A stretch of 64,000 bases of DNA. Source: Marinomonas alcarazii (GTDB lineage Bacteria; Pseudomonadota; Gammaproteobacteria; Pseudomonadales; Marinomonadaceae). Shown piece after piece: positions 5,739-19,423 of this stretch. Within the stretch, counting starts at the first letter, position 1. Every line of letters begins with the position of its first letter. Under the pieces are notes generated by a model. The model was not told the DNA's origin and did not search any database. It saw only the letters and a program-made list of their open reading frames with translations. The stretch covers positions 1 to 64,000 of the forward strand of contig NZ_QKLW01000008.1 in assembly GCF_003208215.1 (NCBI RefSeq), written 5' to 3'. A program made the position numbers and the translations under genes.

Positions 5739-5757
5739 CCTCTTTTTTATTTTTATT
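5739..5757 (-). promoter_or_regulatory. Shine-Dalgarno plus A-rich AAN motif of the cold-shock gene
   Basis: On the minus strand AATAAAAATAA (5747-5757) is followed by AAA and the ribosome site AGAGG (5739-5743). It reads as consecutive AAN triplets, the kind of sequence bound by the distal face of Hfq. The 11-mer is identical to the core repeated in the RNA at 17.5 kb. Translational control by Hfq/Crc is inference. Confidence 0.35.
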
Positions 5758-14550: not shown

Positions 14551-14985
14551 ATGCCAAATATGAACCCTGAATCATTAATGAAAGACTTCACTCCTTACGT
14601 TGCTAAGGATGGCGAAGAATACATGAACGAAAACCAGTTGGCGCACTTTAAAAGCATTCTACTCAACTGGAAGCAAAATCTTATGGAAGAGGTTGATCGT
14701 ACCGTTCATCACTTAAAAGAAGAAGCGGTGAATTACGCGGATCCTAACGATCGCGCTAGCCAAGAGGAAGAATTTAGCCTAGAACTTCGCGCTCGTGACC
14801 GCGAACGTAAACTGGTTAAAAAAATCTCTCAGACCATTGAGCTAATCGATGCGGATGATTATGGCTACTGTGAAGAGTGCGGTATCGAAATCGGCATTCG
14901 CCGTCTAGAAGCTCGCCCTACAGCAACCATGTGCATTGATTGCAAAACATTGGCTGAAATCAAAGAGAAGCAAATCGGCGGTTAA
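14551..14985 (+). CDS. dksA: RNA polymerase-binding transcription factor DksA
   Basis: DksA enters the RNA polymerase secondary channel and, with ppGpp, represses rRNA promoters and activates amino-acid genes. The coiled-coil tip carries the functional DxxDxA as DPNDRA, followed by the conserved QEEEFSLELR, and the C-terminus has a four-Cys zinc finger (CEEC...CIDC). I chose the ATG at 14551 (MPNMNPES) because GTGAGG lies 8 nt upstream; an ATG 6 nt earlier is possible. The product is about 144 residues, close to the 151 of E. coli. gluQ follows 4 nt downstream. Confidence 0.96.
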   Translation: MPNMNPESLMKDFTPYVAKDGEEYMNENQLAHFKSILLNWKQNLMEEVDRTVHHLKEEAVNYADPNDRASQEEEFSLELRARDRERKLVKKISQTIELIDADDYGYCEECGIEIGIRRLEARPTATMCIDCKTLAEIKEKQIGG

Positions 14986-14989
14986 CAGC

Positions 14990-15892
14990 TTGCTGTCAAA
15001 CCACGTTAGCTCTTCCGCGACACCCTATCGTGGCCGCTTTGCGCCATCGCCAACCGGCCCTCTCCACTTTGGCTCGCTAGTCAGCGCATTAGCGAGCTAT
15101 TTGGATGCAAAACAACAGCAAGGCAGCTGGATTATCCGCATAGAAGATGTGGATGGTACACGTTGCAATGCGCGTTTTGCAGAACAAATCATCGACACAC
15201 TTAACAGCTACGGACTTCACTCCGACGAACCTATCCGCGTTCAAAGCCAGCATCACAATCTATACGAACAGCAATTATCTAAACTCAAACAACAACAGAT
15301 CGTTTTCCCCTGTAATTGCACACGCCAGTCGCTTGCTAAACACAACGGCAGCCACCCAAACAAATGCCAAAGCAACTTAGACAACCCCCATTCGTGGCGC
15401 CTACAAACAAGCCCCGTCATCTATGAATATCAAGACCGCATTCAGGGTCGATTGGTTTTCAGCGACGATCTAAAAAATAACTGCCCAGTATTAAAAAGAA
15501 AAGACGGCTTCTTCTCTTACCAACTCGCCGTTGTGGTAGATGACCACTTACAAAACATCAGCCACTTAGTCAGAGGCGCCGACCTCATTGAAACTACCGC
15601 ACAGCAATTGCACCTTTATCACTTATTAGGCTGGACAGCACCAAACCTTTGCCACATCCCTCTTATTACCAACCACCAAGGCGATAAGATCAGCAAGCAA
15701 AATCACGCCAAACCCATAGAGAACAATCATCTCCCAACTCTCTTGCGTGCACTTCATTATCTAAAAATAGATCTAATCTCACCCACCTCGATCACCGAAG
15801 CGCTTTCGCTGGCGATCGAGGCCTGGGACCCCAGTAAGCTACAGGGCATAAAAGACCTCCCTCTGGAAGAGCAAGACCTTCATTTCATCTAA
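14990..15892 (+). CDS. gluQ: Glutamyl-Q tRNA(Asp) synthetase
   Basis: A truncated glutamyl-tRNA synthetase paralogue that attaches glutamate to queuosine at position 34 of tRNA-Asp; it lacks the anticodon-binding domain. About 300 residues, with RGRFAPSPTGPLHFGSL containing the HIGH-type motif, four zinc-type cysteines (CNC...C...), and a KMSKS-like KISKQ. The frame is open into dksA; I chose the TTG at 14990, placed after GGCGG and 4 nt past the dksA stop. The dksA-gluQ pairing is conserved in gammaproteobacteria and suggests co-transcription. Confidence 0.93.
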   Translation: MLSNHVSSSATPYRGRFAPSPTGPLHFGSLVSALASYLDAKQQQGSWIIRIEDVDGTRCNARFAEQIIDTLNSYGLHSDEPIRVQSQHHNLYEQQLSKLKQQQIVFPCNCTRQSLAKHNGSHPNKCQSNLDNPHSWRLQTSPVIYEYQDRIQGRLVFSDDLKNNCPVLKRKDGFFSYQLAVVVDDHLQNISHLVRGADLIETTAQQLHLYHLLGWTAPNLCHIPLITNHQGDKISKQNHAKPIENNHLPTLLRALHYLKIDLISPTSITEALSLAIEAWDPSKLQGIKDLPLEEQDLHFI

Positions 15893-16018: not shown

Positions 16019-17401
16019 ATGCACAGCATTATGATCATTTGCCCAGACAACTCACCACTCAAAGAGTCAGAAAAGTGGTTGTCTCGATATGGTTTTCAGG
16101 TCAACACCAGCAGCACATTAGAGCAAGCAACACGCTACTATGAGCTAGCCGAATTCCACTTACTGCTTATCGATCAAGAGAGCATTGATAACACCGGCAT
16201 TGCCATGCCTGAGACACCTCCTCGTATTGTTTTGGATACCAAGCCTAGTCTCAGCACGGGTGTCAGCAGCATGTCCAAAGGCGCGCTTTATTACCTGCCT
16301 CTGCCAACCGACTCCGAAACCCTGCTAAACAATGTGGTCAACGCACTAGAACAACACAATCACACTCCTTCCCATGAAGAAGTACCGACATCCAATTCAA
16401 CCGACAGCCCGATAGAAGAAACTCTCACACTTGGGACTGCTGGCAGCGGCATAATTGGCCAATGCCAACCCATGCAAGATTTGTTTAGCGATATGAGAAA
16501 AATTGCAGGAACCGATGTCACCGTGCTGATAAGAGGTGAATCTGGTACAGGTAAAGAACTGGTCGCAAAAGCCTTGCACAACTTAAGTTTGCGCAGCAAG
16601 AATCCCATCATCAGCGTCAACTGTGCCGCTATCCCCGAAAACCTAATAGAATCAGAGCTATTTGGGCATGAAAAAGGCGCTTTTACTGGCGCCAGTGCTG
16701 CACATGACGGCCTAATATTCGCAGCCGATAAAGGCACCTTGTTCCTAGATGAAATAGGCGAGCTCCCCTTAGAAGCTCAAGCTAGGCTATTGCGCGTATT
16801 ACAAGAAGGCGAAATCCGCAGGGTCGGCGCAACACAATCCACTAAAGTAAACATTAGGCTCATCACAGCCACTCACAGAGACTTGATGGCGATGGTCAAG
16901 CAAGGACAATTTCGGGAGGATTTATATTATCGTCTCTACGTTATGGAGCTGCTACTGCCGCCATTGAGAGAAAGAGGAGAGGACATTTCGATCCTTGCAA
17001 AAAGTTTACTGGAAAAAATTTGTCAAAAACACAACAAACCCGTCTACAGCTACAGCCGAACGTTTGACAAAGCCATCCGCGCGCACAACTGGCCCGGCAA
17101 TGTACGAGAGCTAGAAAACGCCATAGAAAGAGCGGTAATACTTAGCCCCAAAGGAAAGATTGACGCCAGTAACCTGAAGCTTGCCACTCAGCAAAATTCA
17201 ACATCAACAACCAACAGCGACGCTGCAAGTAGCACCGAGACACTCACTGGAACAACACTGGATGATTACTTCAAGCACTTCGTACTAACGCACCAACACA
17301 AGATGACCGAAACACAACTTGCACACTCTTTGGGCATATCAAGAAAAAGCTTGTGGGAAAGACGACAAAAACTTTTCATACCCAAAAAAGTAACAAACTA
17401 A
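16019..17401 (+). CDS. CbrB-like sigma-54-dependent transcription activator
   Basis: A 460-residue NtrC-family activator. It has a degenerate receiver domain (1-110), an AAA+ sigma-54-interacting domain with Walker A GESGTGKE (173-180), GAFTGA (220-225) and Walker B LFLDEIGE, and a C-terminal helix-turn-helix ending GISRKSLWERRQK. The receiver keeps a candidate phospho-acceptor Asp52, but the usual Lys in the KP motif is Leu95. The ATG at 16019 has the strong site AAGAGGTGA. The slot between gluQ and pcnB is that of cbrA-cbrB in Pseudomonas; here no CbrA kinase gene is present. A sigma-54 promoter lies about 105 bp downstream of the gene, so the sRNA behind it is the obvious target. Confidence 0.85.
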   Translation: MHSIMIICPDNSPLKESEKWLSRYGFQVNTSSTLEQATRYYELAEFHLLLIDQESIDNTGIAMPETPPRIVLDTKPSLSTGVSSMSKGALYYLPLPTDSETLLNNVVNALEQHNHTPSHEEVPTSNSTDSPIEETLTLGTAGSGIIGQCQPMQDLFSDMRKIAGTDVTVLIRGESGTGKELVAKALHNLSLRSKNPIISVNCAAIPENLIESELFGHEKGAFTGASAAHDGLIFAADKGTLFLDEIGELPLEAQARLLRVLQEGEIRRVGATQSTKVNIRLITATHRDLMAMVKQGQFREDLYYRLYVMELLLPPLRERGEDISILAKSLLEKICQKHNKPVYSYSRTFDKAIRAHNWPGNVRELENAIERAVILSPKGKIDASNLKLATQQNSTSTTNSDAASSTETLTGTTLDDYFKHFVLTHQHKMTETQLAHSLGISRKSLWERRQKLFIPKKVTN

Positions 17402-17409
17402 AAGTAACA
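17390..17409 (+). promoter_or_regulatory. Candidate upstream activator sites (two GTAACA hexamers)
   Basis: GTAACA occurs at 17390-17395 and 17404-17409, at about -141 and -127 from the predicted sigma-54 start. That is a normal distance for enhancer-binding protein sites. From memory, CbrB half-sites in Pseudomonas contain a similar hexamer. The binding is inference. Confidence 0.35.
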
Positions 17410-17504
17410 CCTGATACCAAAATACCCAAAAAATATGCAAGACTTTGTAAAGAAAATGAACAGAAAGACACTAAAACGCAGCAAAATCAGCACTTTATGA
17501 TTTT

Positions 17505-17519
17505 TGGCACAACTAATGC
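17505..17519 (+). promoter_or_regulatory. Sigma-54 (-24/-12) promoter
   Basis: TGGCAC-N5-ATGC matches the RpoN consensus TGGCAC-N5-TTGC with the invariant GG (17506-17507) and GC (17518-17519) at the required spacing. The start is expected near 17531. It lies in an intergenic region directly behind a sigma-54 activator gene. Confidence 0.75.
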
Positions 17520-17530
17520 CTTATATATGA

Positions 17531-17822
17531 CACAACGATAATAAGATTGACCAAGAATAAAAATAAGTTAATCGTCGTATGTAGGTTCTTAAAAATAAAA
17601 ATAAAAGCTAAGAACACCGTGACCTCTTCAAATAAAAATAAAAATTTGAGGTCATGGATGGAAAATCGCTTTGGATAATTGATTTTTTTAGATATATAAG
17701 CCTTCGGGCAATGAAAACAATGCAAAAATAAAAATAAAACCTGAGTAGAACTGCAGAAGCAGCACCCACTTTGTTTTCGGAACTAGTATCTTCATGTATC
17801 CAAAGCGATTATTTTATTTACT
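17531..17822 (+). ncRNA. Putative CrcZ-like small RNA with four AAN-repeat motifs
   Basis: An RNA of about 290 nt is predicted from the sigma-54 promoter. It contains four A-rich blocks sharing AATAAAAATAA (about 17553-17567, 17591-17606, 17630-17645, 17724-17739), each readable as four or more AAN triplets, i.e. Hfq distal-face sites. Block 2 sits in the loop of GTTCTT/AAGAAC (17585-17590, 17610-17615). Block 3 sits in the loop of TGACCTC/GAGGTCA (17620-17626, 17648-17654). A GCC-TTCG-GGC tetraloop hairpin (17700-17709) and block 4 lie inside a 14-bp perfect long-range stem (17664-17677 with 17797-17810), after which the sequence turns T-rich. CrcZ of Pseudomonas occupies this same slot, is driven by CbrB and sigma-54, and titrates Hfq/Crc. 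The primary sequence here is different, so homology is by synteny and design. Confidence 0.7.
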
Positions 17823-17962
17823 CCTTGTAAATTCTAATCGCTTCACAACCTCCCCCTGAATTACGACACACTGAAATCATCTAAACATAACCATTATTCG
17901 TGTAATTTTACAACTTTCACGTGTAGAATGCCCTTTTCGTTAACTTTAAAATTTGTTGTCTA

Positions 17963-19423
17963 ATGCTCACAGGATTAAAATCTCTGGTACGTAAAGCTAC
18001 CTCTCTGTTTGCCTCACCACAGGCGCAGACTTACCCTATTATCATTCCTCGCAGCGAGCACAGCTTATCTCGACAAGATTTAAGCCCAAATGCTGTCAAA
18101 GTATTGTATCGCCTAAATAAAGCGGGCTTTGACGCATACCTTGTTGGCGGCTGCATCCGAGACCATTTGATTGGCATTGAACCCAAAGATTTTGATGTTG
18201 TAACCAACGCAACGCCTGAAGAAGTTCACAGCACCTTCTCGAATTCGAGACTGATTGGTCGTCGTTTCAAACTGGTTCACGTGACATTCGGACGCGAGAT
18301 CATTGAGGTATCAACATTCAGAGCCAACACAGCTCAAGATGACAATGACGCCGCAACAAGCACAACGCAAAAATCCCTGAAAGGTAAAGACTCCGCACGC
18401 TCTGCTCACGGCATAGTGTTACGCGATAATGTCTACGGCAGCATAGAAGAAGACGCCGAGCGCCGAGACTTCACTTTCAATGCCTTGTATTACAATGTCC
18501 AGGATTTCAGCATCCACGATTACTGTGGAGGCCTAAAAGACATAGAGAACAAACAAATTCGTATCATTGGTGACGCAAGACAACGCTACCAAGAAGACCC
18601 TGTTCGCATGCTAAGAGCCATTCGCTTTGCGGGCAAACTGGGTTTTGAGCTAGAAGCAGAAACCGCCGCGCCGATCAAAGAAATGGCACACCTGCTCGAC
18701 CACATCCCGCCTGCTCGCTTATTTGAAGAAGTACTCAAATTACTTGGCAGCGGTAACGGCATAGAAACCTTCGCCCTATTACGTCAATATGGTCTATTCC
18801 GCTATTTATTCCCAGACACAGAAGCATTACTGCAAAGTGGCTGGAAACGTAACGACATCGACCCAGAAGCGTTCATTCTGCAAGGCCTAAAAAATACTGA
18901 CGATCGTATCCAAAGTGGCAAAACCACTGCGCCGTATTTTTTATATGCCGTATTACTTTGGCCAAGCGTAGCGCTACGTCATGAAGAATTCCAAGCGCAA
19001 GGCATGCCAGCAACACCGGCGCTGCACCAAGCCGCTAACATGGTCTTAGACAATCAGGTCGCGTCTACAGCTATTCCTCGCCGCTTCTCAACGCCAATGC
19101 GTGAAATCTGGGATATGCAATATCGACTACCAAAACGCTACGGTAAACGAGCGTTTTTATTGCTAGAGCGCCCTCGTTTCCGTGCTGCATACGACTTTCT
19201 ACTTATTCGTGAATTAAGTGGAACCGAATTAGACGGCCTAGGCGATTGGTGGGAGAAATTCCAGCATGGCACAGAAAGCCAACAGAGAGATCTTATTAAA
19301 AGCATTGACTCATTTAGCAAAGACAAAGAAGGTCCGAAAAAGCGCCGTCCACGTCGTCGTAGAAAGAGTAATAGCAACACATCCGAAACAGCAAAATCAC
19401 AAAGCGACACTTTTGACGAGTAA
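17963..19423 (+). CDS. pcnB: Poly(A) polymerase I
   Basis: This enzyme adds 3' poly(A) tails that mark RNAs for decay. The 486 residues contain the nucleotidyltransferase signature LVGGCIRDHLIGIEPKDFD with the catalytic Asp pair DFD, the RRDFTFNALYY segment, and the RNA-binding RMLRAIRFAGKLGFELE region. The C-terminal tail is highly basic (KKRRPRRRRK) as in the family. The ATG at 17963 is the first in the frame. The gene lies downstream of the putative sRNA and 11 nt upstream of folK, so the two are probably in one operon. Confidence 0.95.
   Translation: MLTGLKSLVRKATSLFASPQAQTYPIIIPRSEHSLSRQDLSPNAVKVLYRLNKAGFDAYLVGGCIRDHLIGIEPKDFDVVTNATPEEVHSTFSNSRLIGRRFKLVHVTFGREIIEVSTFRANTAQDDNDAATSTTQKSLKGKDSARSAHGIVLRDNVYGSIEEDAERRDFTFNALYYNVQDFSIHDYCGGLKDIENKQIRIIGDARQRYQEDPVRMLRAIRFAGKLGFELEAETAAPIKEMAHLLDHIPPARLFEEVLKLLGSGNGIETFALLRQYGLFRYLFPDTEALLQSGWKRNDIDPEAFILQGLKNTDDRIQSGKTTAPYFLYAVLLWPSVALRHEEFQAQGMPATPALHQAANMVLDNQVASTAIPRRFSTPMREIWDMQYRLPKRYGKRAFLLLERPRFRAAYDFLLIRELSGTELDGLGDWWEKFQHGTESQQRDLIKSIDSFSKDKEGPKKRRPRRRRKSNSNTSETAKSQSDTFDE

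Follow-up and report, generated by a model that had tools for sequence, protein, structure and literature searches.

The cbrB-pcnB locus of Marinomonas

The window examined here, i.e., the whole 64,000-nt stretch of DNA, comes from a Marinomonas genome, and its CbrB-like protein is 90% identical to that of M. foliarum and 84% to that of M. pontica. The gene order is dksA, gluQ, a CbrB-like sigma-54 activator gene, a 561-bp gap, pcnB, folK, panB, panC and pgi, with the names of the genes past pcnB read off their translations. In Pseudomonas, cbrA and cbrB lie between gluQ and pcnB, and crcZ is found behind cbrB. Gene calls, Pfam matches and synteny place a candidate RNA between cbrB and pcnB, in the same orientation as both, in 38/38 sequences. 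The features of the locus are as follows:

14936..15892, + strand: gluQ (glutamyl-Q tRNA(Asp) synthetase-like), immediately 5' of the CbrB-like gene; Pfam tRNA-synt_1c 5e-41, synteny
16019..17401, + strand: CbrB-like sigma-54 activator; Pfam Sigma54_activat 8.5e-72, receiver residues, C-terminus; open frame from 15920, likely start at ATG 16019
17390..17417, + strand: candidate CbrB enhancer, GTAACA (17390)-N8-GTAACA (17404)-N2-TGATAC (17412)
17504..17520, + strand: predicted sigma-54 promoter, -24 GG at 17506-17507 and -12 GC at 17518-17519, in the same place in 38/38 sequences
17530..17820, + strand: candidate CrcZ-type RNA, ~290 nt; conservation bounds, folding z-score, presence in 36/36 Marinomonas genomes
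17545..17573, + strand: hairpin 1, 7-bp stem, loop holding AAN block 1 (17553-17566)
17585..17615, + strand: hairpin 2, 7-bp stem, loop holding AAN block 2 (17591-17604)
17617..17657, + strand: hairpin 3, 10-bp stem, loop holding AAN block 3 (17631-17644), strongest covariation
17658..17819, + strand: 3' domain, nearly invariant; long closing stem (core 17664-17677 with 17797-17810), U-rich tract at its end; contains AAN block 4 (17724-17737) and a GCC/GGC hairpin (17700-17709)
17963..19423, + strand: pcnB (poly(A) polymerase I); Pfam PolyA_pol and PolyA_pol_arg_C

The initial annotation of this DNA had placed a -24/-12 promoter in the gap, and the site is indeed present as TTGGCACAACTAATGCC. 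The match alone is not significant, as the window holds 16 matches with up to two mismatches and 17 are expected; the promoter call is supported because the position is conserved, 107-115 bp from the end of cbrB in 38/38 distinct Marinomonas sequences. Furthermore, candidate activator sites lie upstream of the promoter. The Pseudomonas CbrB subsite is GTAACA/TGTTAC, within the pattern TGTTAC-N12-14-GTAACA-N15-19-GTAACA (PMC8871633). In Marinomonas the hexamers are conserved and arranged GTAACA-N8-GTAACA-N2-TGNTAC, with a spacing of 8 bp in contrast to the 12-19 bp of the Pseudomonas pattern. The two GTAACA copies are spaced 14 bp apart in 35 of the 38 sequences, and the second GTAACA-N2-TGNTAC is invariant in all of them. 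A separate promoter-like block (CGTGTAA...CACGTGTAGAAT), conserved in nearly all Marinomonas, lies directly upstream of pcnB at 17899-17930 and suggests that this gene has a promoter of its own.

Structure and conservation of the candidate RNA

In the alignment of the 38 sequences, conservation begins at the promoter and stops at a U-rich tract near 17819. The RNA is predicted to start at 17530-17532 and to end at the U-rich tract, 17809-17819. A terminator scan found no classical terminator; termination probably takes place where the closing stem runs into its U-rich end. Folding of the RNA yielded a z-score of -5.4, with none of 200 shuffles as good, and the consensus fold consists of three hairpins carrying blocks 1-3 in their loops, followed by the long closing stem that encloses block 4. 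The display of A-rich blocks in hairpin loops had been proposed earlier for two blocks on 6-7-bp stems; the display was confirmed, and the count was corrected to three blocks on stems of 7, 7 and 10 bp. The 14-bp stem joining 17664-17677 to 17797-17810 is perfect and encloses a UUCG hairpin together with block 4, just as first described. This hairpin reads GCC-UUCG-GGC in the window, and it is its GCC/GGC stem that is conserved, not the UUCG loop.

Covariation in the syntenic gaps of relatives had been put forward as a check on the candidate RNA, and the Marinomonas stems do covary. Across the 38 sequences, standard pairs account for 99.4% of cells, compared with 39-46% paired in slid-structure controls, and both sides of a pair are changed in 47 cells compared with 13.9 after shuffling. 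Most of the covariation is carried by hairpin 3, with four pairs changed on both sides. In the closing helix, 18 of the 23 pairs never vary, leaving it neither supported nor contradicted by covariation. The RNA was found as a single copy, with 81-100% identity, in all 36 Marinomonas genomes searched, and no paralogue was found elsewhere in the genome. In addition, the 3' domain exceeds the decoy hairpins in conservation across the genus, and no relative of it is known outside Marinomonas; a simple decoy does not need such a near-invariant domain.

The four A-rich AAN blocks with a common sequence, which the initial annotation had reported, are all present, and each contains AATAAAAATAA. This 11-mer occurs five times in the 64-kb window (0.13 expected), four of them in the cbrB-pcnB gap, and AAN runs there span 56 nt compared with 14 expected, a value that none of 1000 shuffles attained. 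Loss of the blocks in related genomes would have spoken against the RNA; they are kept in 38/38 Marinomonas sequences. Within the 11-nt AAN cores of these sequences, 28/28 substitutions affect N and all 1201 base-bearing A cells are unchanged, the only further changes being 15 gap cells. The A positions of the AAN triplets are under selection, and substitution confined to N is the pattern expected if the A-R-N distal pockets of Hfq select the sequence. The blocks had been described as an AAU/AAA motif departing from the CA type. This part of the description was withdrawn, and with it the idea of a new motif, since AAUAAAAAUAA fits the published CA motif, AAnAAnAA (PMC12533007).

A candidate Hfq/Crc decoy and its possible targets

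Both partners of a decoy RNA are encoded in the genome. Hfq is nearly identical to that of P. aeruginosa, and Crc, encoded next to pyrE, has P. aeruginosa Crc as its best PDB match (1.6e-78). Genome-wide tests were carried out as pattern searches combined with fetched stretches, and a motif copy was assigned to a start codon when located within -100 to +30 of it. The exact 11-mer AATAAAAATAA has 44 genomic copies, 40 of them outside the RNA. Among these 40, 25 lie at sense start codons, mostly at -16 to -32, and one at an antisense start codon (binomial p = 8e-7), whereas the off-register control AATAAAATAAA, of equal composition, has 1/14 copies at a sense start (Fisher p 4e-4). Because a simple script based on ORFs and Shine-Dalgarno sequences called the surrounding genes, single start positions are provisional, and it is the sense/antisense contrast that counts as evidence. 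The transport genes behind motif copies encode two sugar ABC binding proteins, a sugar-type ABC permease, a FadL-type porin and MFS and BCCT transporters; the enzymes include a fatty-acid oxidation protein, two aldehyde dehydrogenases and a gluconolactonase-like protein, and further genes encode a sulfatase, sugar isomerase-like proteins and an MCP. Hfq/Crc repression typically acts on genes of this kind. As the 11-mer also stands at the start codons of catabolic genes, decoy and targets would have the ordinary motif in common.

The start-codon copies (among the 44 places in genome G000; L001-L008, L133-L164) outline a candidate Hfq/Crc regulon, which also takes in LysR regulators, a cold-shock protein (window 5747-5757) and a DksA-type protein. 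Candidate Hfq/Crc targets in Marinomonas can be drawn directly from this list of motif copies.

CrcZ (Rfam RF01675) of Pseudomonas and Azotobacter has the paralogues CrcY and CrcX, and to our knowledge the decoy circuit has so far been described in these two genera only. An Rfam scan of the window at the gathering threshold found nothing; the CrcZ model itself scored 12.2 bits (E 1.1) against a cut-off of 95 bits, which no Marinomonas genome passes. In a permissive Rfam scan the CrcZ match covered chiefly the A-rich 5' end, and a snoRNA match was taken as chance. The open-licence papers searched for CrcZ or CbrB in Marinomonas held no report of this RNA. In P. aeruginosa, CrcZ is an RNA of 407 nt with six A-rich stretches that binds the distal face of Hfq and titrates the protein off its target mRNAs (PMC4063720). 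The Marinomonas RNA resembles CrcZ in the cbrB-pcnB position, the sigma-54 promoter, the upstream CbrB hexamers, several AAnAAnAA sites and the motif at catabolic gene starts, with Hfq and Crc in the genome; it also begins with ACAAC. However, it is ~290 nt long and has four sites, and it differs further in its own structured body, single copy, lack of CbrA and other enhancer spacing.

Altogether, these results point to a CrcZ-type Hfq/Crc decoy RNA encoded in the gap, a reading to which we assign a probability of about 0.86; that the RNA is transcribed, depends on RpoN and CbrB, and binds and titrates Hfq/Crc is what we infer from the features described. In the proposed mechanism, sigma-54 RNA polymerase would start the ~290-nt RNA at about 17531, assisted by the neighboring CbrB-like activator bound at the GTAACA sites of 17390-17417. 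The RNA would display AAUAAAAAUAA at four sites, three times within a hairpin loop, and Hfq together with Crc could bind these sites via its distal face. This would draw Hfq/Crc off catabolic and transport mRNAs, whose ribosome-binding sites carry the same motif, and allow them to be translated.

Other readings of the conserved block have to be weighed against this one. The RNA could act mainly as a trans-acting base-pairing sRNA, in which the distal-face sites serve stability, the 3' domain pairs with targets and titration is secondary. That domain is better conserved than the hairpins of the decoy and is left without a task in the decoy model, which speaks for such a function, but almost all of its conserved strands pair within the RNA, the four AAN sites held in common with catabolic gene starts are what a decoy needs, and both position and promoter match crcZ; we therefore consider a base-pairing sRNA unlikely. 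A cis-acting leader or attenuator of pcnB is more improbable still. Although pcnB is the next gene downstream and has the same orientation, a stem with a U-rich tract closes the RNA 143 bp ahead of the pcnB start, the conserved promoter-like block of pcnB itself intervenes, and a leader would leave the AAN sites and the CrcZ position unexplained. As for an A+T-rich or simple-repeat stretch that is functionless as RNA, the region is A-rich and its AAN runs are of low complexity, yet shuffled sequences fail to match it, the triplet register is kept through all substitutions in 38 sequences, the stems covary and the motif recurs in the sense orientation at start codons, which reduces this explanation to a negligible one.

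CbrB without CbrA and distribution across the order

The Marinomonas activator is a CbrB ortholog by synteny and whole-length similarity. Its AAA+ domain and GAFTGA motif are retained in 38/38 Marinomonas sequences, and its DNA-binding C-terminus gives a close alignment to CbrB from other families. It differs from the known CbrA/CbrB system at its receiver end: the protein has no Pfam Response_reg match, and in 38/38 sequences the acidic pair is lost and the lysine replaced by leucine, with the aspartate kept. Furthermore, a CbrA ortholog is absent from all Marinomonas genomes searched, and gluQ adjoins cbrB. Because CbrA is absent and the receiver degenerate, CbrB probably acts here without its kinase; its activity may instead follow from how much of it is made, respond to a ligand, or be uncontrolled. 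The best CbrA match in the genome is the SLC5 part of a 1152-aa sensor kinase paralogue (G000:C2:630512-632272; CrbS-like), which has counterparts in many genomes of the order and is a possible alternative source of the signal.

CbrAB has been stated to be exclusive to Pseudomonadaceae (PMC6296734, PMC8871633). Across the GTDB order, CbrB-like proteins were detected in 252/294 sampled genomes and CbrA in about 200-219/294 (219 at E 1e-60, a few of which are weaker SLC5-kinase paralogues), a spread that calls for revision of this statement. The gap behind cbrB was sampled in 20 other genomes, one per family of the order, and in Marinobacterium, and usually carries a -24/-12 site, CA motifs and CbrB hexamers. 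Twelve of the 21 gaps beat all 300 shuffles on both AAN measures and three more on AAN coverage, the clear exceptions being L083 (contig end), L090 and L095. The Rfam CrcZ cut-off was passed in two non-Marinomonas genomes, with sub-threshold matches next to cbrB in two others, and scores in five non-Marinomonas genomes were graded (306, 111, 49, 36 and 29 bits). Cassettes of other families, such as that of Marinobacterium (L065), share the gene order, the -24/-12 site, the GTAACA/TGTTAC hexamers and the AAN clusters, in Marinobacterium with two AATAAAAATAAAAA blocks; in contrast to Marinomonas, most keep cbrA and a canonical receiver, their RNA bodies do not align and some contain two tandem units.

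When a profile of the Marinomonas RNA was searched against the syntenic gaps of the other families, no sound relative was found (best nhmmer E 8e-4, an A-rich match). Homology beyond the genus consequently rests on synteny, promoter, hexamers, CA motifs and the graded Rfam scores. The RNA lies outside Rfam CrcZ as modelled and nevertheless belongs, by its synteny, promoter, activator sites and motifs, to a cassette shared by most of the sampled families. The divergent, unannotated CrcZ member envisaged by the initial annotation is upheld in part, as a CrcZ-like, sigma-54-type, CbrB-linked RNA that Rfam does not recognize and that occurs in all Marinomonas sampled, with Hfq and Crc clear; what falls away is a motif of its own. 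Nor is the RNA an isolated oddity, as most of the order has comparable cassettes. Its divergence lies in the RNA body and in the upstream control, which has lost CbrA and retains a CbrB with a degenerate receiver. Given the distribution across the order, control of Hfq/Crc by a decoy RNA would date far back in a large group of mostly marine bacteria.

Loss of cbrA beside cbrB, with the downstream CrcZ-like RNA kept, was observed in Marinomonas and in L096, L097 and L111-L131 (families f13, f15, f40 and f41), and the CbrB receivers of these lineages often show Asp to Glu or loss of the lysine. Families f13 and f15 are without cbrA, many of their members carry Asp to Glu, and the receiver is deleted in two (L128, L130); the aspartate is also lost in two f40 genomes and one f41 genome. 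Every sampled locus with cbrA has a canonical receiver. In a tree built from the AAA+ and DNA-binding parts, about eight changes are needed to account for the lack of cbrA, and well-supported branches force at least three of them. A strict pairing of every cbrA loss with receiver decay was rejected, as G037, G112 and G273 lack cbrA beside cbrB and have a canonical receiver.

Phosphorylation reportedly matters little to CbrB of P. putida (PMC6296734), and such losses would be tolerable for that reason. These patterns are consistent with a circuit repeatedly made kinase-free, in which CbrA was lost several times, followed by the phosphorylation chemistry of the receiver (Asp to Glu, loss of the lysine, domain deletion), while the decoy and the Hfq/Crc targets were kept, and in which the rigid, near-invariant 3' domain of the Marinomonas RNA has a second function. 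We put this combined scenario forward tentatively, at somewhat less than even odds. The kinase-less lineages represent natural experiments on what CbrB needs.

The loci with tandem units, L088 and L089, each show two successive sigma-54 promoters between cbrB and pcnB, with AAN clusters after both, and probably carry tandem CrcZ-like genes.
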